Below are positions 4,983 to 19,846 of a DNA stretch of 64,000 nucleotides, one piece after another. A program made the position numbers and the translations under genes. A model generated the notes under the pieces. That model ran no database searches. It saw only the letters and a list, made by a program, of their open reading frames with translations, and was not told where the DNA came from. Origin of the DNA: Sphingobium xenophagum NBRC 107872 (GTDB taxonomy: Bacteria; Pseudomonadota; Alphaproteobacteria; Sphingomonadales; Sphingomonadaceae). Numbering within the stretch: position 1 is the first letter of the stretch; each line of letters begins with the position of its first letter. The stretch spans positions 62,001 to 126,000 of the forward strand of contig NZ_BARE01000011.1 of the NCBI RefSeq assembly GCF_000367345.1, given 5' to 3'.

Positions 4983-6395
4983 TTAGGCTTGGTCGGCTTT
5001 CGCCGGAAGGATGGTGTTTTCGGTGGGAACGGGATTGCGGGCGGCCCGGCGCTTGCCGACACGGGCGAGCAGGACGAGCGACACGGCAGAGAGCAGCGGT
5101 GTGGCCGCCAGCAGCACGAACAGCAGGCGCGGCTGCATGTTCATCGCCAGCAGATAACCGCCCAGCAGCGGCGCGAAGATCGAGCCGATCTTCGCCACCG
5201 ACGTTGCCCATCCAGCGCCATTGGCGCGGATCGCGCTGGGATAGAAGATGCCAGCGATGGAATGCATGCCAAAATGCGTGCCGCTGATCATCGCCATGCT
5301 GAGCAGGGAGAAGGCGGCCAGCCCCTGTAGCGAAACGGGCGCCAGACCCATGACCAGCAGCAGCGGCGCCGCCAGCATGGGATAGAAGGCGATGGCGATC
5401 GGACCCAGGCGGTCAGTGAAGCGCATGAGCGCCAGCCCCGCGATCGAACCGCCGATCGAACTGACGGACATGATCATCGCCGCCTGGGTCCGGGTGAAGC
5501 CGACATCCTCAAAGATGATCGGTCCCCAGTTCGACTTGAAATAGACCGCCATCGAACTGCCGATATAGGCGAGCCACAGCAAGCTGGTGATCGGGCGCAG
5601 GTCGCCTTTGAACAGGGTCGTGATGCGGAAGCTTTGCCCGGTTGAGGCCACCGCTTCGTCGGTGACCGTGAAATGATCCTGCGGCCGCGCGCCAAGCCCC
5701 GGCGCCAGCGCGTTCAGCGACCTGGCGATCTTTTCGGGCGATCGTCCCTTCACCGCCAGATAGCGAGCGGATTCGGGGAGGAGGGCAAAGAGAATGGGCA
5801 CGAGCAGCAGCGTCGCCACGCCCGACACCATGAATACCGATTGCCAGCCATAATCGGGCGCCAGCCAGACCGTCATCGGCCCGGCGACCACGCCGCCCAG
5901 CGTATAGCCCATCATGATGACGGTCACGACAGTCGCGCGATAGCGGCTGGGCACGAATTCGATGTTCAGCGCCCAGGCAAGCGGCATCAGCCCGCCCAGC
6001 GCCAGGCCATTAAGGAAACGGAGGATGAGGAGCATATGCATGTTTGGCGCAAGCGCCATGGCTATGCTGGTGGCGCCAAAGGCCACGACCGATGCGATGA
6101 TGATCGGGCGCCGCCCATAACGGTCGCCCAGCCAGCCAAAGGCGATCCCGCCCAGCATCGCCCCGAACACGCCCGTCGCGAACAGTTCGCCCAGCGAAAT
6201 CACGTCCGCACCAAATCCGTCGCGCAGATAGGGCGCGACGAAAGAGATGACGAGCATGTCGAAGCCATCGAGGAAGGTGACCGCCCAGGATAGCGCCACC
6301 AGCCGGATGATGAACGCATTGATCCGCTGACGTTCGATCACATCTGTCAGATGGATGACGACAGGGGGTGACGGATCGGTTGCGTTCATGCTCAT
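4983..6395 (-). CDS. MFS transporter, AAHS-like organic/aromatic acid importer
   Basis: Inner-membrane major facilitator with 12 expected transmembrane helices in 470 residues. The first helix carries the DGFDMLVI signature typical of the aromatic acid:H+ symporter group (PcaK, BenK), and GWLGDRYGRRPIII is the loop 2-3 MFS motif. Start at 6395 has AGGAG five nt upstream. It sits 24 bp after the TonB-dependent receptor and 14 bp before the dioxygenase start, so outer and inner membrane uptake plus the first enzyme are co-transcribed. This supports a carboxylated, probably aromatic or aryl-ether, substrate for the operon; the exact compound is not readable. Confidence 0.9.
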   Translation of the reverse strand: MSMNATDPSPPVVIHLTDVIERQRINAFIIRLVALSWAVTFLDGFDMLVISFVAPYLRDGFGADVISLGELFATGVFGAMLGGIAFGWLGDRYGRRPIIIASVVAFGATSIAMALAPNMHMLLILRFLNGLALGGLMPLAWALNIEFVPSRYRATVVTVIMMGYTLGGVVAGPMTVWLAPDYGWQSVFMVSGVATLLLVPILFALLPESARYLAVKGRSPEKIARSLNALAPGLGARPQDHFTVTDEAVASTGQSFRITTLFKGDLRPITSLLWLAYIGSSMAVYFKSNWGPIIFEDVGFTRTQAAMIMSVSSIGGSIAGLALMRFTDRLGPIAIAFYPMLAAPLLLVMGLAPVSLQGLAAFSLLSMAMISGTHFGMHSIAGIFYPSAIRANGAGWATSVAKIGSIFAPLLGGYLLAMNMQPRLLFVLLAATPLLSAVSLVLLARVGKRRAARNPVPTENTILPAKADQA

Positions 6396-15573: not shown

Positions 15574-16371
15574 TCAGCATGGCCCCTCCAGCCGGGGATT
15601 GCCGGAACCGACGGGCTTGTCCTGCGCGGTGATCGCAGCAATCAGGCCGTCGGCCAGCCATTGCCCCAGCCACTGGCCGACAAGCGCTATGCCGCGATCT
15701 TCGCCTAGCTGGACCGTCACCTTTCGACATGCCGCACCGAAGGGCAGGCCGCCACGCAGGTCAAGCAACGTCTGCAACTCCATAGCGTCGATGGTCCTGA
15801 CGCGACATTGTTCGTCCTGACGCCATAACAGCGCCGTTTCAGGCGTCCCCAGATATTGGGACGCTGGCGGCTCTTCCCCGGCAACCAAAGCGGACCAGAT
15901 GGCAAAGGCATTCGTCTTGAGGTCAACAAGGTCGATTGCCCTCTGGAACGTCAATAAGGCGTATTCCCAGTCAAGGTCGTGCAGATGATCCAGCGCGACC
16001 GCCGGGCCGTCCGCCGAGATGAACAATTCTTCCAGCCCCAGTTCCAGGCAGGCGATTTCCGCGATTTCCGGATCGTGCGGTTGGAGCCTTGCCAGCGTCA
16101 CGGGGAAATCATGCGCATAGGCGTCGAGCGTCCAGCTGCTTGGCGGCACATCGTCGATATGATGCGCGGCGGCATGCAGAAACCTCTCCTCGCCAATCCA
16201 GGCACGGGTTCGCGCAAAGCTGCTTTCAAGGCAGGTGACGAGCTGGGACCGGTAATTATTCTGATAGACGGCAAAGCCCGCCTCGCAGGACGATTGGATA
16301 CGCGCAGCGGCAGCCATATCGGCGCGCACGAGCCAGTCGCGCATGTCGCGCTGAAGTGCGAGAAGGCTCAT
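15574..16371 (-). CDS. bufC: DUF2063 protein, bufferin maturation partner (BufC/HvfC type)
   Basis: Protein of 265 residues with the DUF2063 N-terminal helical domain (LQRDMRDWLV, then FAVYQNNYRSQLVTCLESSF, typical of the family) and a C-terminal winged-helix-like part. In characterised bufferin and related MNIO systems the BufC/HvfC partner recruits the precursor leader to the MNIO enzyme. Its start codon overlaps the MNIO stop by four bases (ATGA), so a 1:1 complex is likely. It is the last gene of the leftward operon and ends 14 bp from the convergent BCCT gene. Confidence 0.85.
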   Translation of the reverse strand: MSLLALQRDMRDWLVRADMAAAARIQSSCEAGFAVYQNNYRSQLVTCLESSFARTRAWIGEERFLHAAAHHIDDVPPSSWTLDAYAHDFPVTLARLQPHDPEIAEIACLELGLEELFISADGPAVALDHLHDLDWEYALLTFQRAIDLVDLKTNAFAIWSALVAGEEPPASQYLGTPETALLWRQDEQCRVRTIDAMELQTLLDLRGGLPFGAACRKVTVQLGEDRGIALVGQWLGQWLADGLIAAITAQDKPVGSGNPRLEGPC

Positions 16372-17198
16372 GCCGCTGCCCTCACTGCGCCAGCGGCGAT
16401 CGTCCGCGCGGTGCCCAGTTCCGCGAGCAGCTCCCCCAAAGGCGGTATGTCATCGTCCCGCTCGATCATCGTCGCCACGGGGCCAAGGCGTGGCAGGATA
16501 TGGGCGTAAAGGTCCCATACCGACGGGGGGACAGGCCGATCATGCGTGTCGATCAGCAGATGTTCGCCCTGGCTATGGCCGGCAAGATGGACCTGACGCA
16601 CATGATCATGCGGGACACCATCCAGATAGGCGATCGGATCGAAGCCGTGATTGCTGGCGCTGACAAAGACGTTGTTGACGTCCAGCAGCAGGCCACAGCC
16701 CGTTCGTGCGCACACCCTGTTCAGAAATTCCCACTCAGTCATGTCGCCCGACGCGAAATCGAGATAGGATGACGGGTTTTCGATCAACATGGCGCGGCCC
16801 AGCGCATCCTGCGCCCGATGAATGTTCGCGCAGACAATATCGAGCGCTTCCATCGTATAGGGCAGGGGCAGGAGGTCGTGGGAATTGAACCCCTCGATCC
16901 GCGACCAGCTCAGATGATCAGACACGAACAGCGGTTCGATCTCGTCGACGAGTGCGCGCAGGCGGTTAAGATATAAGCCGTCGATGCCGTCGGCGGAACC
17001 GATCGACATCGACACGCCGTGCAGCGCGACCGGATAGCGGGCGCGAATGTCGCGCAATATCCGCCGGGGCCGACCACCATCGACCATGAAATTTTCGGAG
17101 ATCACCTCCAGAAAATCAACGGCGACATCGCGGTCGAAAAAGTCGGCATAGTGCGGCGTGCGCAGGCCAAGGCCGAAGCCGGAGAAGGACGGGATCAT
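16368..17198 (-). CDS. bufB: MNIO (DUF692) multinuclear iron oxygenase, bufferin maturase
   Basis: TIM-barrel enzyme of 276 residues that in this family uses two or three irons to convert precursor cysteines (to 5-thiooxazole in bufferins). Expected metal and active-site residues are all visible: EVISENFM, HGVSMSIGS, VSDHLSW, LIENPSSY, LLLDVNNV, VHLAGH, IDTHD and MIERDDDIP. Start 17198 (MIPSFSGFGLGLR) is used because family members begin right before G-x-G-L-R and GGAG lies eight nt upstream; the open frame continues to 17411 but that extension is the antisense-like shadow of the precursor gene. It sits 59 bp after the six-Cys precursor, separated by a hairpin. Confidence 0.92.
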   Translation of the reverse strand: MIPSFSGFGLGLRTPHYADFFDRDVAVDFLEVISENFMVDGGRPRRILRDIRARYPVALHGVSMSIGSADGIDGLYLNRLRALVDEIEPLFVSDHLSWSRIEGFNSHDLLPLPYTMEALDIVCANIHRAQDALGRAMLIENPSSYLDFASGDMTEWEFLNRVCARTGCGLLLDVNNVFVSASNHGFDPIAYLDGVPHDHVRQVHLAGHSQGEHLLIDTHDRPVPPSVWDLYAHILPRLGPVATMIERDDDIPPLGELLAELGTARTIAAGAVRAAA

Positions 17199-17223
17199 CA
17201 GGACGCTCCCTGCTGCAAGGGAA

Positions 17224-17247
17224 CCCGGCGCTGACGGGAGCGCCGGG
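17224..17247 (-). other. Intercistronic hairpin between precursor and maturase
   Basis: Perfect 9-bp stem CCCGGCGCT/AGCGCCGGG with a 6-nt loop, in the 59-bp gap between the six-Cys precursor and bufB. It is followed on the minus strand only by GTTCCCTT, so it is at best a leaky terminator or 3' end stabiliser. Such an element would give more precursor than enzyme mRNA; that role is inferred. Confidence 0.55.
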
Positions 17248-17257
17248 CTTTCGAATG

Positions 17258-17527
17258 TTATTGGGGTTCGGTCAGGCTGCCGCCAGCAGCCTTGCATGCC
17301 TTGACGGTCATGGCCTTGAAGCCGTGGCCCTTGCAGACATTCTGCCCCTTGCATTCGTTGCTGGCCGTCTTGCAATCGGACGTGCCCTTGCAGCTGTTGA
17401 TGCCGTAGCAATGCACGACCTTCGTATCGGCGCTATCCTTCGCGATGGCCGGGGCAGCGGCGGCAGCCACGATCGCGATGGAGGCAGCGGAAGCGGCGAT
17501 GCCAAGGCCAGTGTTGAGAGTGAGCAT
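17258..17527 (-). CDS. bufA: Bufferin-type RiPP precursor with six cysteines
   Basis: Secreted small protein of 89 residues. A Sec signal peptide ([16 protein letters not shown]... cut after APAIA, about residue 29) doubles as RiPP leader. The mature part has six Cys spaced in repeated C-K motifs ([29 protein letters not shown]), the pattern of BufA2/HvfA-like MNIO substrates. After modification it would bind metal, probably copper, in the periplasm. A SigF-type promoter (17573-17600) lies just upstream and bufB-bufC follow. Metal identity and the number of modified cysteines cannot be read from sequence. Confidence 0.88.
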
Positions 17528-17572
17528 GAGGGATTCTCCAAAAAAGCAGGTTGCGCCACGATGGCTCCTGTC

Positions 17573-17600
17573 TTTCGGTCCCGCCGGTCGACTGGTTACA
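17573..17600 (-). promoter_or_regulatory. SigF-type ECF promoter of the bufA-bufB-bufC operon
   Basis: Minus strand TGTAACC (17594-17600), 16-nt spacer, CGAAA (17573-17577). It is identical in -35 and spacer length to the two promoters flanking 18.86 kb, and lies about 45 nt before the bufA start. It resembles the GTAACC-N16-CGAA promoter known to me for Caulobacter SigF. Confidence 0.8.
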
Positions 17601-17638
17601 GCAGCGAACGAAAATTCCTGCTGGAACGCTGTGTCGCC

Positions 17639-18280
17639 TCACCAGCGCAGCAGCCTTGGCCCCACCAGCATGCCGAGCAGGGTCGCCAACACGATGCCGA
17701 GCGAATACCAGGTCAGAACGAAGATGGCCGACACTTCGGGGCAGTGCAGGCAATAGACGGTCGCCGCAAATGCGCCGGCAGAAAGGCCCGCCGCCGCCCC
17801 GGCCGCCCTGAGCCGCGTAGGGGCGAGCCTGCGGAAGGACCAGAGCAATCCCGCAAAGATCGGCGCGGACAGCGACAGGACCATCCATGGACAGCTTTTC
17901 CAGCTCTCGCCCAGCCACATCGCCAGCCATTGGGACGACGGAGTCCGCGCCAGTTCGAGAAAGCCTATGCCCGCCAGCAGGACGACCGGGATCACGAGCA
18001 GCCACAGGCCACGCAGCCGACCGCTATCGGGCCGGGCGAGTTGCGCGGTTGTCATCAATGCGGCGACCGCCAGGGAAAAGGTATAGCCCCATTTCATCCA
18101 GAAGGATGTGCCCTGCATCGCCGTGCCCAGATCCGGCCGCATCCCAAGCGCGATCAGGATCAATATGGCCGATCCTGTTCCTCCGGCGGCCATGCCGATG
18201 GCCAGCCTTCGCGCGACGCTATTGCGACCGACCGGGCGCGTTTCCTTGGCCAGATGCCTGACCAGATCGTCCGTGTTCAT
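17639..18280 (-). CDS. nrsF: NrsF/DUF1109 membrane anti-sigma factor
   Basis: Inner-membrane protein of 213 residues with six hydrophobic helices, DUF1109 family. In Caulobacter NrsF holds SigF inactive and releases it on chromate or cadmium stress through two conserved cysteines (about 131 and 181). Here Cys130 (ESWKSCPW), Cys177 and Cys180 (YCLHCPE) occupy those places, so metal or thiol sensing is plausible. The start overlaps the sigF stop by four bases (ATGA), the usual sigma/anti-sigma coupling. It is 111 bp upstream of the bufA operon, which has its own promoter. Confidence 0.9.
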   Translation of the reverse strand: MNTDDLVRHLAKETRPVGRNSVARRLAIGMAAGGTGSAILILIALGMRPDLGTAMQGTSFWMKWGYTFSLAVAALMTTAQLARPDSGRLRGLWLLVIPVVLLAGIGFLELARTPSSQWLAMWLGESWKSCPWMVLSLSAPIFAGLLWSFRRLAPTRLRAAGAAAGLSAGAFAATVYCLHCPEVSAIFVLTWYSLGIVLATLLGMLVGPRLLRW

Positions 18281-18816
18281 CGCAGCGCTCCTTGTACCCG
18301 ACCCATCAGCGCCTTCAGTCCGCGATGTACCGAAACCTTTACGTCCGATTCCCCTATACCCTCCGCGCTTGCCGCCTCGGCGACGCTCAGTCCCTCGATC
18401 CGCGTGGCGCGGATCGCCCGCGCCTGCTTGTCAGGCAGCCCTTGCAACAGGTCGTCCACATCCAGCCGGGCGATGCTGCTCGCCTCGAAATCCGCAGCGG
18501 TGAGCCATTCATCGTAATCCTCGATCGGCCGCAGACGGCCGACGCGGCGCAGGTGGTCGATCATTTTGTATCGCGCGACCGCGTACAGCCAGGCGGTGAA
18601 TGGGCGCTCTCGGTCGTAGGTGGCGCGGCGGGTATGAACGGCAATAAGGGTTTCCTGCACCATATCCTCGACATCGTCGTCAGCGCCGCGAAGCCGACGC
18701 CGATAGAAGCCCCGCAGCAGCGGAACAAGCAGGCGCAGCAATGCTTCATGGGCCTTGGCGTCGCCATTCAGCCCATCGATCATCAACGCACGCAGATGCT
18801 CCTCTGTGGTCTGCAT
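18277..18816 (-). CDS. sigF: ECF sigma factor SigF
   Basis: Sigma-70 family ECF factor of 179 residues. Region 2 is seen as DVEDMVQETLIAVHTRR followed by PFTAWLYAVARYKMIDHLRR, and region 4 as LSVAEAASAEGIGESDVKVSVHRGLKAL (helix-turn-helix) near residue 130-165. Gene order sigF-nrsF-bufA-bufB-bufC matches the bufferin regulon of Caulobacter-like bacteria. Its own promoter (18836-18863) carries the same TGTAACC-N16-CGAA pattern, implying positive autoregulation. It is divergent from the four-Cys bufferin gene. Confidence 0.92.
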   Translation of the reverse strand: MQTTEEHLRALMIDGLNGDAKAHEALLRLLVPLLRGFYRRRLRGADDDVEDMVQETLIAVHTRRATYDRERPFTAWLYAVARYKMIDHLRRVGRLRPIEDYDEWLTAADFEASSIARLDVDDLLQGLPDKQARAIRATRIEGLSVAEAASAEGIGESDVKVSVHRGLKALMGRVQGALR

Positions 18817-18835
18817 TCTGTCTCCTCATTCGCAT

Positions 18836-18863
18836 GTTCGGAGGAAGTCGTGGCCAGGTTACA
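18836..18863 (-). promoter_or_regulatory. SigF-type promoter of sigF-nrsF
   Basis: Minus strand TGTAACC (18857-18863), 16-nt spacer, CGAAC (18836-18840), about 20 nt before the sigF start codon. Same elements and spacing as the other two sites in this locus, so sigF appears autoregulated. Confidence 0.8.
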
Positions 18864-18868
18864 GCTTT

Positions 18869-18887
18869 GCGCGAAAAATTTTCGCGC
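18869..18887. promoter_or_regulatory. Palindrome between the divergent SigF promoters
   Basis: Perfect 19-nt palindrome GCGCGAAAA-A-TTTTCGCGC placed between the two outward-facing -35 boxes, 5 nt from the sigF -35 and 8 nt from the bufA -35. Could be an operator for an additional regulator acting on both directions. No candidate regulator is encoded beside it apart from SigF. Confidence 0.5.
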
Positions 18888-18895
18888 GAAATGTC

Positions 18896-18923
18896 TGTAA
18901 CCGGATTTGCGCCTGTCACGAAC
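18896..18923 (+). promoter_or_regulatory. SigF-type promoter of the four-Cys bufA and doxX
   Basis: Plus strand TGTAACC (18896-18902), 16-nt spacer, CGAAC (18919-18923). It lies about 100 nt before the bufA start codon, leaving a leader that contains a strong hairpin (18970-18994). Confidence 0.8.
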
Positions 18924-18969
18924 TTGCCGACGTGACACGGGCTTTCCCCAGCCTCCTCCCCGGTCACCG

Positions 18970-18994
18970 CGCGGTCCGGCCTGTCCGGACCGCG
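18970..18994 (+). other. Leader hairpin upstream of the four-Cys bufA
   Basis: Perfect 10-bp stem CGCGGTCCGG/CCGGACCGCG with a 5-nt loop, ending about 29 nt before the start codon and 21 nt before the Shine-Dalgarno AGAGGA. There is no U-tract, so it is not an intrinsic terminator; an mRNA-stabilising or translational role is possible. Confidence 0.5.
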
Positions 18995-19023
18995 TGAAGA
19001 GGCCCAGGATCAAAGAGGACATC

Positions 19024-19302
19024 ATGATGCGTACCACCCATGCCGCGCTCGCTGCGAGCATCGCCATCGCTTCGGCAGCCGCGCTCGCCATGCCTGCCCA
19101 TGCCCAGGAAAAGCCGAAGATGGAAAAATGCTACGGCGTCTCGCTCGCCGGCAAGAACGACTGTGCTGCGGGCCCCGGCACCAGCTGCGCGGGCACGTCC
19201 AAGGTCAACTATCAGGGCAACGCCTGGAAGCTGGTCAAGGCAGGCACCTGCACATCGATCAAGACGCCCAAGGGTAACGGATCGCTGACGCCCAAGGCCT
19301 GA
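19024..19302 (+). CDS. bufA: Bufferin precursor with four cysteines (DUF2282, BufA1 type)
   Basis: Secreted RiPP precursor of 92 residues with a Sec signal peptide ending AMPAHAQ (about residue 28). The mature part shows the DUF2282 pattern of four Cys: [25 protein letters not shown] and a closing AGTC. Such bufferins are exported, modified by an MNIO enzyme and bind copper in the periplasm. A second in-frame ATG at 19027 is better spaced from AGAGGA and may be the real start. Unlike the usual layout, no bufB/bufC follows; doxX does, 49 bp on. Modification by the divergently encoded bufB-bufC is inferred. Confidence 0.9.
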
Positions 19303-19351
19303 CCGAAGCGGCCGGGGCGTGCCTTCGTCCCGGCCCTGCTGGAGATGATCG

Positions 19352-19795
19352 ATGCTTGTGCCAATCCATGATCGTTGCACTCGGCGCATCGCCGCGATGT
19401 TGCCGGATGCATTGCTGCTATTCGTCGCCCGTATGGCCATCGCGTCCATATTCTTCCTGTCCGGACGCACGAAGGTAGAGGGTATCCTGACCATCACGGA
19501 CGGCACATATGAGCTGTTTCGTACCGAATATGCGCTGCCGCTGGTGCCGCCGGACATCGCCGCGACCATGGCCACCGGGGCGGAACATCTTTTCTCTATC
19601 CTGCTCGTGCTGGGGCTGGGTACGCGTTTTTCAGCGCTGGCTCTCCTTACGATGACGTTGGTCATCCAAATTTTCGTCTATCCCGACGCCTGGCCGACGC
19701 ATCTTAGCTGGATTGCCATCCTGCTGCCCCTCATCGCGCGCGGCGGAGGCGCCTGGTCAGCCGATGCGCTGCTGCGCCGAAGGTCGGATCGCTGA
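19352..19795 (+). CDS. bufD: DoxX-family membrane protein (BufD type)
   Basis: Integral membrane protein of 147 residues with four predicted helices and the DoxX landmark [21 protein letters not shown]. DoxX proteins often accompany MNIO/bufferin loci (BufD), though their role there is not settled; quinone- or redox-linked membrane functions are suspected. GGAG seven nt before the start supports 19352. It forms a two-gene unit with the four-Cys precursor and is closed by a strong terminator at 19809. Confidence 0.85.
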
Positions 19796-19808
19796 GTTGA
19801 GGCCGAAC

Positions 19809-19846
19809 AAATGCCGGCAGGATCGAATGATCCGCCGGCATTTTTT
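19809..19846 (+). terminator. Intrinsic terminator after doxX
   Basis: Stem AAATGCCGGC/GCCGGCATTT extended by GGATC/GATCC with one bulged A and a GAAT loop, followed by a run of six T. It lies between doxX and the convergent S9 peptidase and could also serve the latter weakly. Confidence 0.9.

Follow-up and report, generated by a model that had tools for sequence, protein, structure and literature searches.

Gene content of the locus

We analysed a 64-kb stretch of DNA (the window) from Sphingobium xenophagum NBRC 107872 (contig NZ_BARE01000011.1, positions 62,001 to 126,000; host genome: 138 contigs totalling 4.49 Mb), in which genes for an extracytoplasmic function (ECF) sigma factor, SigF, and a membrane anti-sigma factor, NrsF, lie together with genes for two bufferin precursors. 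Gene families were assigned with Pfam and NCBIfam profiles. Five genes run on the minus strand in the order sigF, nrsF, bufA2, bufB and bufC. The first of them, sigF (18277..18816), encodes 179 amino acids (aa) with matches to PF04542 (53.5 bits) and PF08281 (42.7 bits), and adjoins nrsF (17639..18280), whose first 4 nucleotides (nt) are shared with the end of sigF. The nrsF product (213 aa) matched PF06532 with 255.4 bits (E 5.4e-76) and the NCBIfam equivalog NF042994 with 166.5 bits, which is under the cut-off of 300. The closest named relatives by NrsF are from Sphingobium (87% in L008 and 80% in L009), and SigF is 92% identical to its L008 counterpart.

Downstream lies bufA2 (17258..17527), encoding an 89-aa precursor with six Cys that matched the BufA2 family NF050166 with 110.8 bits against a cut-off of 60. 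It is followed by bufB (16368..17198; 276 aa), a gene for an MNIO maturase of the BufB2 type (PF05114, 364.6 bits; NF050167, 378.1 bits), and by bufC (15574..16371; 265 aa), which encodes a DUF2063 partner protein (PF09836, 61.2 bits). With its six Cys and the adjoining MNIO and DUF2063 genes, BufA2 belongs to the Buf2 family. Judged by eye, its N-terminus carries a signal-peptide-like stretch, and all six Cys are invariant among 55 sequences. On the plus strand, divergent from sigF, bufA1 (19024..19302) encodes a 92-aa, four-Cys precursor of the Buf1 (DUF2282) type (PF10048, 85.8 bits). Across 55 sequences, Cys 36, 47 and 55 are found in 100% and Cys 76 is kept in 98.2%. The next gene, doxX (bufD; 19352..19795, plus strand), encodes a DoxX-family membrane protein of 147 aa (PF07681, 64.0 bits).

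Three SigF-type promoters and their conservation

We found that the motif TGTAACC-N16-CGAA occurs exactly three times in the window, before bufA2, sigF and bufA1, each time with a 16-nt spacer and in the correct orientation, as the earlier note on this DNA had described. The predicted promoter of sigF-nrsF (18837..18863, minus strand) has its -35 box TGTAACC at 18857-18863 and its -10 box CGAA at 18837-18840, and lies 20 nt upstream of the sigF ATG. That of bufA2-bufB-bufC (17574..17600, minus strand) has the boxes at 17594-17600 and 17574-17577. The third, ahead of bufA1-doxX (18896..18922, plus strand), has them at 18896-18902 and 18919-18922, about 100 nt upstream of the ATG, and stands back to back with the sigF promoter. 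The note had placed the three sites at 17573-17600, 18836-18863 and 18896-18923, each one base too long. In 100 dinucleotide shuffles of the window the motif occurred 0.00 times on average and 0 times at most, and the flanking BCCT transporter and S9 peptidase genes had no exact SigF-type site ahead of them in the same window search. The sites equal the Caulobacter SigF motif GTAACC-N16-CGAA, which is backed by 5′ rapid amplification of cDNA ends, primer extension and reporter assays in the account of PMC3511200. Between the two divergent -35 boxes (18864-18895), an A/T tract lies in an inverted repeat (GCGCGAAAA-A-TTTTCGCGC at 18869); A/T-rich stretches occupy the corresponding place in the relatives inspected, the inverted repeat not obviously so.

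A genome-wide search, which the earlier note had proposed and which like all our genome-wide promoter searches used the 16-nt spacer, listed four exact sites, three in the window and a new one described below. However, the reversed control pattern also gave four, so the count alone carries no weight and speaks, if anything, against a dedicated regulon. Searches allowing one mismatch were unusable, with 32 matches against 59 for the reversed control, which is background, and GTAACC-N16-CGWA gave 5 sites against 24. Eleven of 28 one-mismatch places were inspected; all lay inside stop-to-stop frames of 627-1464 nt, and no convincing target was found among them, one on contig C80 differing only by the missing leading T. 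Another of the eleven, C123:125199, lies 135 nt upstream of a 380-codon transporter-like open reading frame (ORF). The weight of the motif evidence therefore comes from clustering, position and conservation in relatives.

This conservation was followed in relatives collected by an NrsF-based scan of genome contigs, which gave 84 relatives; the best 80 were kept, 74 of them labelled sphingomonad. The complete layout, with doxX-bufA1 divergent from sigF-nrsF and then bufA2-bufB-bufC, is present in 47 of the 80 loci, 23 have neither bufferin precursor, and the remaining 10 are partial or rearranged. Considered pairwise, doxX lies at most 400 nt from bufA1 on the same strand in 54/80 loci, and bufA2 at most 600 nt after nrsF on the same strand in 50/80. 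Within 250 nt upstream, excluding genes with less than 150 nt of upstream sequence, an N16 site with at most one mismatch to GTAACC/CGAA precedes 71/77 sigF, 55/55 bufA1 and 53/54 bufA2 genes (exact in 46, 41 and 41 cases, respectively), whereas the reversed-stretch control with at most one mismatch gave 0/77, 0/55 and 2/54, both of the latter with 15-nt spacers. The note's reading of a SigF/NrsF locus whose two bufferin precursors belong to a set of three matching promoters is supported, and these promoters are conserved in sphingomonads.

Concerted change of the -10 boxes

Among the 49 loci carrying all three N16 sites, the -10 box reads CGAA at all three promoters in 35 and CGTA at all three in 7, while CGTA occurs only at sigF in 4 and only at bufA2 in 3. 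This joint shift of the three promoters argues that one sigma factor reads all of them. As far as they were placed, the all-CGTA loci belong to one SigF lineage; six of the seven have SigF in the alignment, and Arg84 is found in 6/6 of these. Conversely, none of the 45 Lys84 loci with three sites (spacer of 15 or 16 nt) has CGTA at all three. There are 14 Arg84 loci, and two bufferin-less ones carry CGAA (L023, at a poor site, and L043). The CGTA triplet in the one lineage with Arg84 for Lys84 may be a natural case of coordinated promoter evolution.

By a manual ungapped count from a shared Trp, residue 84 adjoins the position equivalent to N88 of Mycobacterium tuberculosis sigma-H, the residue that is reported to read base -10 (PMC6411747). 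We asked whether residue 84 causes the -10 boxes to change. Pooled counts, which include some species twice, showed the correlation (K/CGAA 88, R/CGTA 13, K/CGTA 7, R/CGAA 1, K/CGGA 1 and K/CGAC 1). Two points weigh against such a causal role: the seven Lys/CGTA cases and the one Arg/CGAA case, and a SigF tree (with the residue 84 column included) on which a single change of residue 84 stands against six changes of the sigF -10 letter. Because of this mismatch on the tree, the residue was kept as a candidate and a lead only.

A fourth site before a distant msrA operon

The earlier note had called the regulon self-contained. This did not hold, since the fourth exact site of the genome (C122:148093-148119) precedes a distant msrA operon, 26 nt upstream of an ORF of 50 residues (L005:5147-5299) that overlaps msrA (5286-5957). 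The MsrA product begins with a signal-peptide-like stretch, as judged by eye. The small ORF itself looks like a membrane peptide (LKS-LFLRF-GGFAIG), and in several Sphingobium genomes msrA is preceded by a similar small ORF, whether or not a SigF site is present.

The region upstream of a close periplasmic MsrA was obtained for 71 of 81 Sphingobium genomes. An exact site precedes msrA in 11 of the 32 genomes with an MNIO gene and in none of the 39 without (Fisher p 5e-5, relatedness ignored). The 11 comprise 7 of 25 genomes with a high-scoring NrsF and 4 of 7 with a divergent NrsF, and among the 39, NrsF is lacking in 27, divergent in 8 and high-scoring in 4. Two features of these data reduce their force: the p-value overlooks kinship (the 11 sites include five nearly identical ones and a further two that resemble each other closely), and 21 of the 32 MNIO-carrying genomes have no such site. 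Because of the latter, the link to msrA is lineage-specific. In L094, L096, L179 and L180, genomes with or without an MNIO gene, the position holds a sequence with four mismatches.

In the Caulobacter SigF regulon the corresponding place is taken by MsrPQ instead of MsrA, as described in PMC8224329. By this analogy, periplasmic methionine repair therefore appears to recur in SigF regulons with different enzymes, MsrA here and MsrPQ in Caulobacter, suggesting that the SigF copper response may keep its logic, copper sequestration plus repair of oxidised proteins in the periplasm, and exchange the enzyme used for the repair.

One MNIO gene and two precursor genes

A point overlooked in the earlier note is that the sole MNIO belongs to the BufB2 type, so that bufA1 has no enzyme dedicated to it. 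In the window genome we found a single MNIO gene and one DUF2282 gene, plus bufA2; a Buf1-type MNIO was not found in this genome. Across Sphingobium, MNIO and DUF2282 genes are found together in 37 of 81 genomes, and neither occurs without the other. A single MNIO is present in 31 of the 37, always with a single DUF2282 gene. Of these 31 MNIOs, 27 are BufB2-like by bit score (at least 348 bits), three score about 297-308 bits and one is a fragment. The three at about 297-308 bits (L214-L216) group with BufB1 in the tree, and the five BufB2-like enzymes that were placed by phylogeny (window, L213, L219, L226 and L227) all fall on the BufB2 side.

A tree of 52 MNIOs divides BufA1-linked from BufA2-linked enzymes and places the window enzyme on the BufA2 side (support 86); the sole exception among enzymes with a called precursor is L160, which is BufA1-linked yet on the BufB2 side. 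In a larger tree of 94 MNIOs, a BufA1-linked clade of 18 enzymes splits off (support 92; bufA1 called directly upstream in 14 and no precursor called in 4), and all 54 nrsF-linked enzymes of sphingomonads, the window's included, lie outside it. In one further locus, L218 (G045:C1:310000-329000), two nrsF and two MNIO genes lie within 12 kb, the MNIOs on opposite sides of the BufB1/BufB2 split.

Since the genome has a single MNIO and this is of the BufB2 type, BufA2 and BufA1 most likely both receive their thiooxazoles from this enzyme acting together with BufC. An alternative, possible in our view though doubtful, is that BufB-BufC serves BufA2 only and that BufA1 is an unmodified Cys peptide or a relic after loss of BufB1. 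The BufB2 type of the sole MNIO fits this alternative, as do the core Cys of the window BufA1, which lie outside CK motifs (NDCAAG and TSCAG), and the suggestion of a survey of bufferin clusters (PMC12452194) that precursors without linkage may be unmodified. We detected no sequence change in BufA1 showing adaptation to a BufB2 enzyme, a result that is neutral or unfavourable to shared modification. A further point concerns Asp249 of BufB, the residue after the conserved catalytic Asp, which in our alignment corresponds to BufB2-Asp251/FonB-Phe250, a position that modelling has linked to the reading of Cys-Lys motifs of BufA2 (PMC13097082). Asp249 is present in 52/54 sphingomonad enzymes and in 2/18 of the BufB1 clade. 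As it is found in only 7/14 of the more distant BufB2-side enzymes, we dropped it as a strict mark of BufB2 enzymes, which lessens its value for an unmodified BufA1.

On the other side, the strict co-occurrence of bufA1 and the MNIO gene (both in 37 of 81 genomes, neither ever alone) and the invariance of two core Cys of BufA1 in 55 sequences favour maturation of BufA1 over non-maturation. The SigF promoter is moreover kept in all 55 bufA1 loci, whereas a relic would decay. For most MNIO-carrying Sphingobium genomes (27/37, with a single BufB2-scoring MNIO), we therefore tend to favour a scheme in which one BufB2-type MNIO with one DUF2063 partner would mature both the Cys-Lys-type BufA2 and the DUF2282-type BufA1, SigF would tie both precursors to methionine repair in the periplasm by way of a recruited msrA, and the sigma factor and its three promoters would have changed together in one lineage. 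Such loci would be a small-scale test, set up by nature, of the reach of one bufferin MNIO across two precursor families.

Signal and regulation

Taken together, it is highly probable that the locus is the core of a Sphingobium SigF/NrsF copper stress regulon with four promoters, msrA included, and one MNIO for both precursors. In Caulobacter, replacement of NrsF C131 or C181 is reported to derepress the regulon (PMC3511200); by position these residues match C130 and C180 of the window protein, which are conserved in 100% and 98.8% of 80 NrsF sequences, the Caulobacter protein itself being unaligned. By analogy, NrsF would hold SigF at the inner membrane until metal or oxidation alters its two periplasmic Cys. 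Freed SigF would then read the three local TGTAACC-N16-CGAA promoters, of sigF-nrsF, bufA2-bufB-bufC and the divergent bufA1-doxX, and a fourth at the distant operon of the small membrane peptide and periplasmic msrA. Two exported Cys-rich peptides, bearing thiooxazoles formed by BufB with BufC, would sequester periplasmic copper, and MsrA would repair oxidised periplasmic proteins. Such a regulon would answer copper, and perhaps also thiol or oxidant stress.

The parallel with Caulobacter that the earlier note had drawn is borne out by published data. As reported in PMC8224329, copper induces the Caulobacter SigF regulon, including sigF and nrsF, and a sigF::Tn5 mutant is copper-sensitive. 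According to Table 2 of that work, sigF/nrsF rise by 4.15-4.70 log2 in M2G and by 1.84-2.88 in PYE, the lowest of the PYE values being significant by the laxer test only. Counting against this model is the report that deletion of Caulobacter sigF caused no greater sensitivity to dichromate or cadmium (PMC3511200).

The note had also proposed positive feedback on sigF. The conserved promoter of this gene makes autoregulation likely, but the sign of the loop is less clear. As nrsF overlaps sigF and should be co-transcribed, the loop would feed both arms, raising the sigma factor and its anti-sigma factor alike, and net positive feedback is unproven; moreover, Caulobacter sigF is described as 'not strongly auto-regulated' under dichromate (PMC3511200).

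We consider it unlikely that the signal is instead periplasmic thiol or methionine oxidation, for example by reactive chlorine species, with copper as one of several triggers. This explanation would fit the periplasmic MsrA as fourth target, the conservation of both key NrsF Cys, and the SigF-type sites that in bufferin-less sphingomonad loci stand before genes that by eye resemble DUF1223, thioredoxin and DUF417 genes. A Brucella ECF sigma/anti-sigma system that is reported to govern hypochlorous acid resistance (PMC8315932) offers a precedent. However, peroxide, tert-butyl hydroperoxide, paraquat and diamide induced the tested Caulobacter SigF genes at most twofold in the experiments of PMC3511200, whereas copper induced the regulon in either medium and in each of the two cell types (PMC8224329). 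Copper as the signal is equally compatible with a methionine sulfoxide reductase, since Escherichia coli MsrPQ is itself reported to be copper-induced, through CusSR (PMC9302797). It is very improbable that a sigma factor other than SigF reads the three motifs, or that they arose by chance: the Caulobacter sigF promoter is reported to survive sigF mutation (PMC3511200) and the exact genome-wide count equals its control, but the position, the spacing, the concerted -10 change across loci and an expectation of 0 in the window all speak against it.

Relation to known systems

The locus shares its sigma/anti-sigma pair, promoter motif and spacer with the SigF-NrsF regulon of Caulobacter crescentus/vibrioides (sigF-nrsF, CC3254-3257, CC2907-2905 and MsrPQ), and is a variation on this known SigF/bufferin system rather than a new kind of system. 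CC2907-2905 we take to be the BufA2-B2-C2 operon. As far as the Caulobacter regulon is described in PMC3511200 and PMC8224329, it is also alike in having two bufferin operons, a DoxX protein and a periplasmic methionine sulfoxide reductase, the last likeness (MsrPQ there, MsrA here) being by analogy only. It differs in that Caulobacter has an MNIO and a DUF2063 gene per bufferin operon, whereas here a single locus holds one B2-type MNIO, one partner and two precursors. Both Caulobacter precursors are listed as DUF2282 in PMC3511200.

The precursors, MNIO, DUF2063 partner and DoxX are common to this locus and the Buf1/Buf2 biosynthetic gene clusters surveyed in PMC12452194. As summarised there, sigma/NrsF genes are found in Buf1 clusters and not in Buf2 clusters, unlike in our set, where sigF-nrsF adjoins a Buf2 cluster in 50/80 loci; the survey may have counted such two-precursor loci as Buf1. 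The same survey notes that tandem precursor genes suggest more than one substrate for some MNIOs. The gold-induced gig/dax cluster of Cupriavidus and Legionella, likened here by its description, is homologous, and in Cupriavidus it is reportedly induced by Cu, Ag and Au (PMC8224329). For the captophorin class of 5-thiooxazole peptides, the window MNIO has, in our alignment, an Asp where enzymes of the Cys-Lys type reportedly do (PMC13097082). For Sphingobium sp. ba1, a word search in the main text of an RNA-seq study on nickel (PMC5557971) found no mention of sigma, DUF or DoxX, so that this study contributed no evidence on expression. We met no report of the sphingomonad locus in the literature searched, which was covered in part, and such a report may exist.

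SigF-type sites in other sphingomonad loci

SigF-type sites also stand before other genes in sphingomonad loci. In the bufferin-less sigF-nrsF loci L031, L041, L050, L067, L069, L078 and L080, such a site precedes a secreted-looking protein with a QSQGCSSCPPA motif, which we take to be a thioredoxin-like protein of the DUF1223 kind. At L020:8678 and L046:8662 it lies ahead of a small membrane protein, presumably related to DUF417/RclC, a family associated with reactive chlorine resistance. Small exported thioredoxin-like proteins (HAPWCPVCRQQ) follow SigF-type sites at L030:5197 and L046:3939, about 2-4 kb from sigF. By eye, a cytochrome b561-like gene divergent from sigF lies behind such a site at L046:7207 and L084:1951 (both on the minus strand), and an acetyl-CoA acetyltransferase-like gene, likewise divergent from sigF, does so in L069, L072, L077, L078 and L080.

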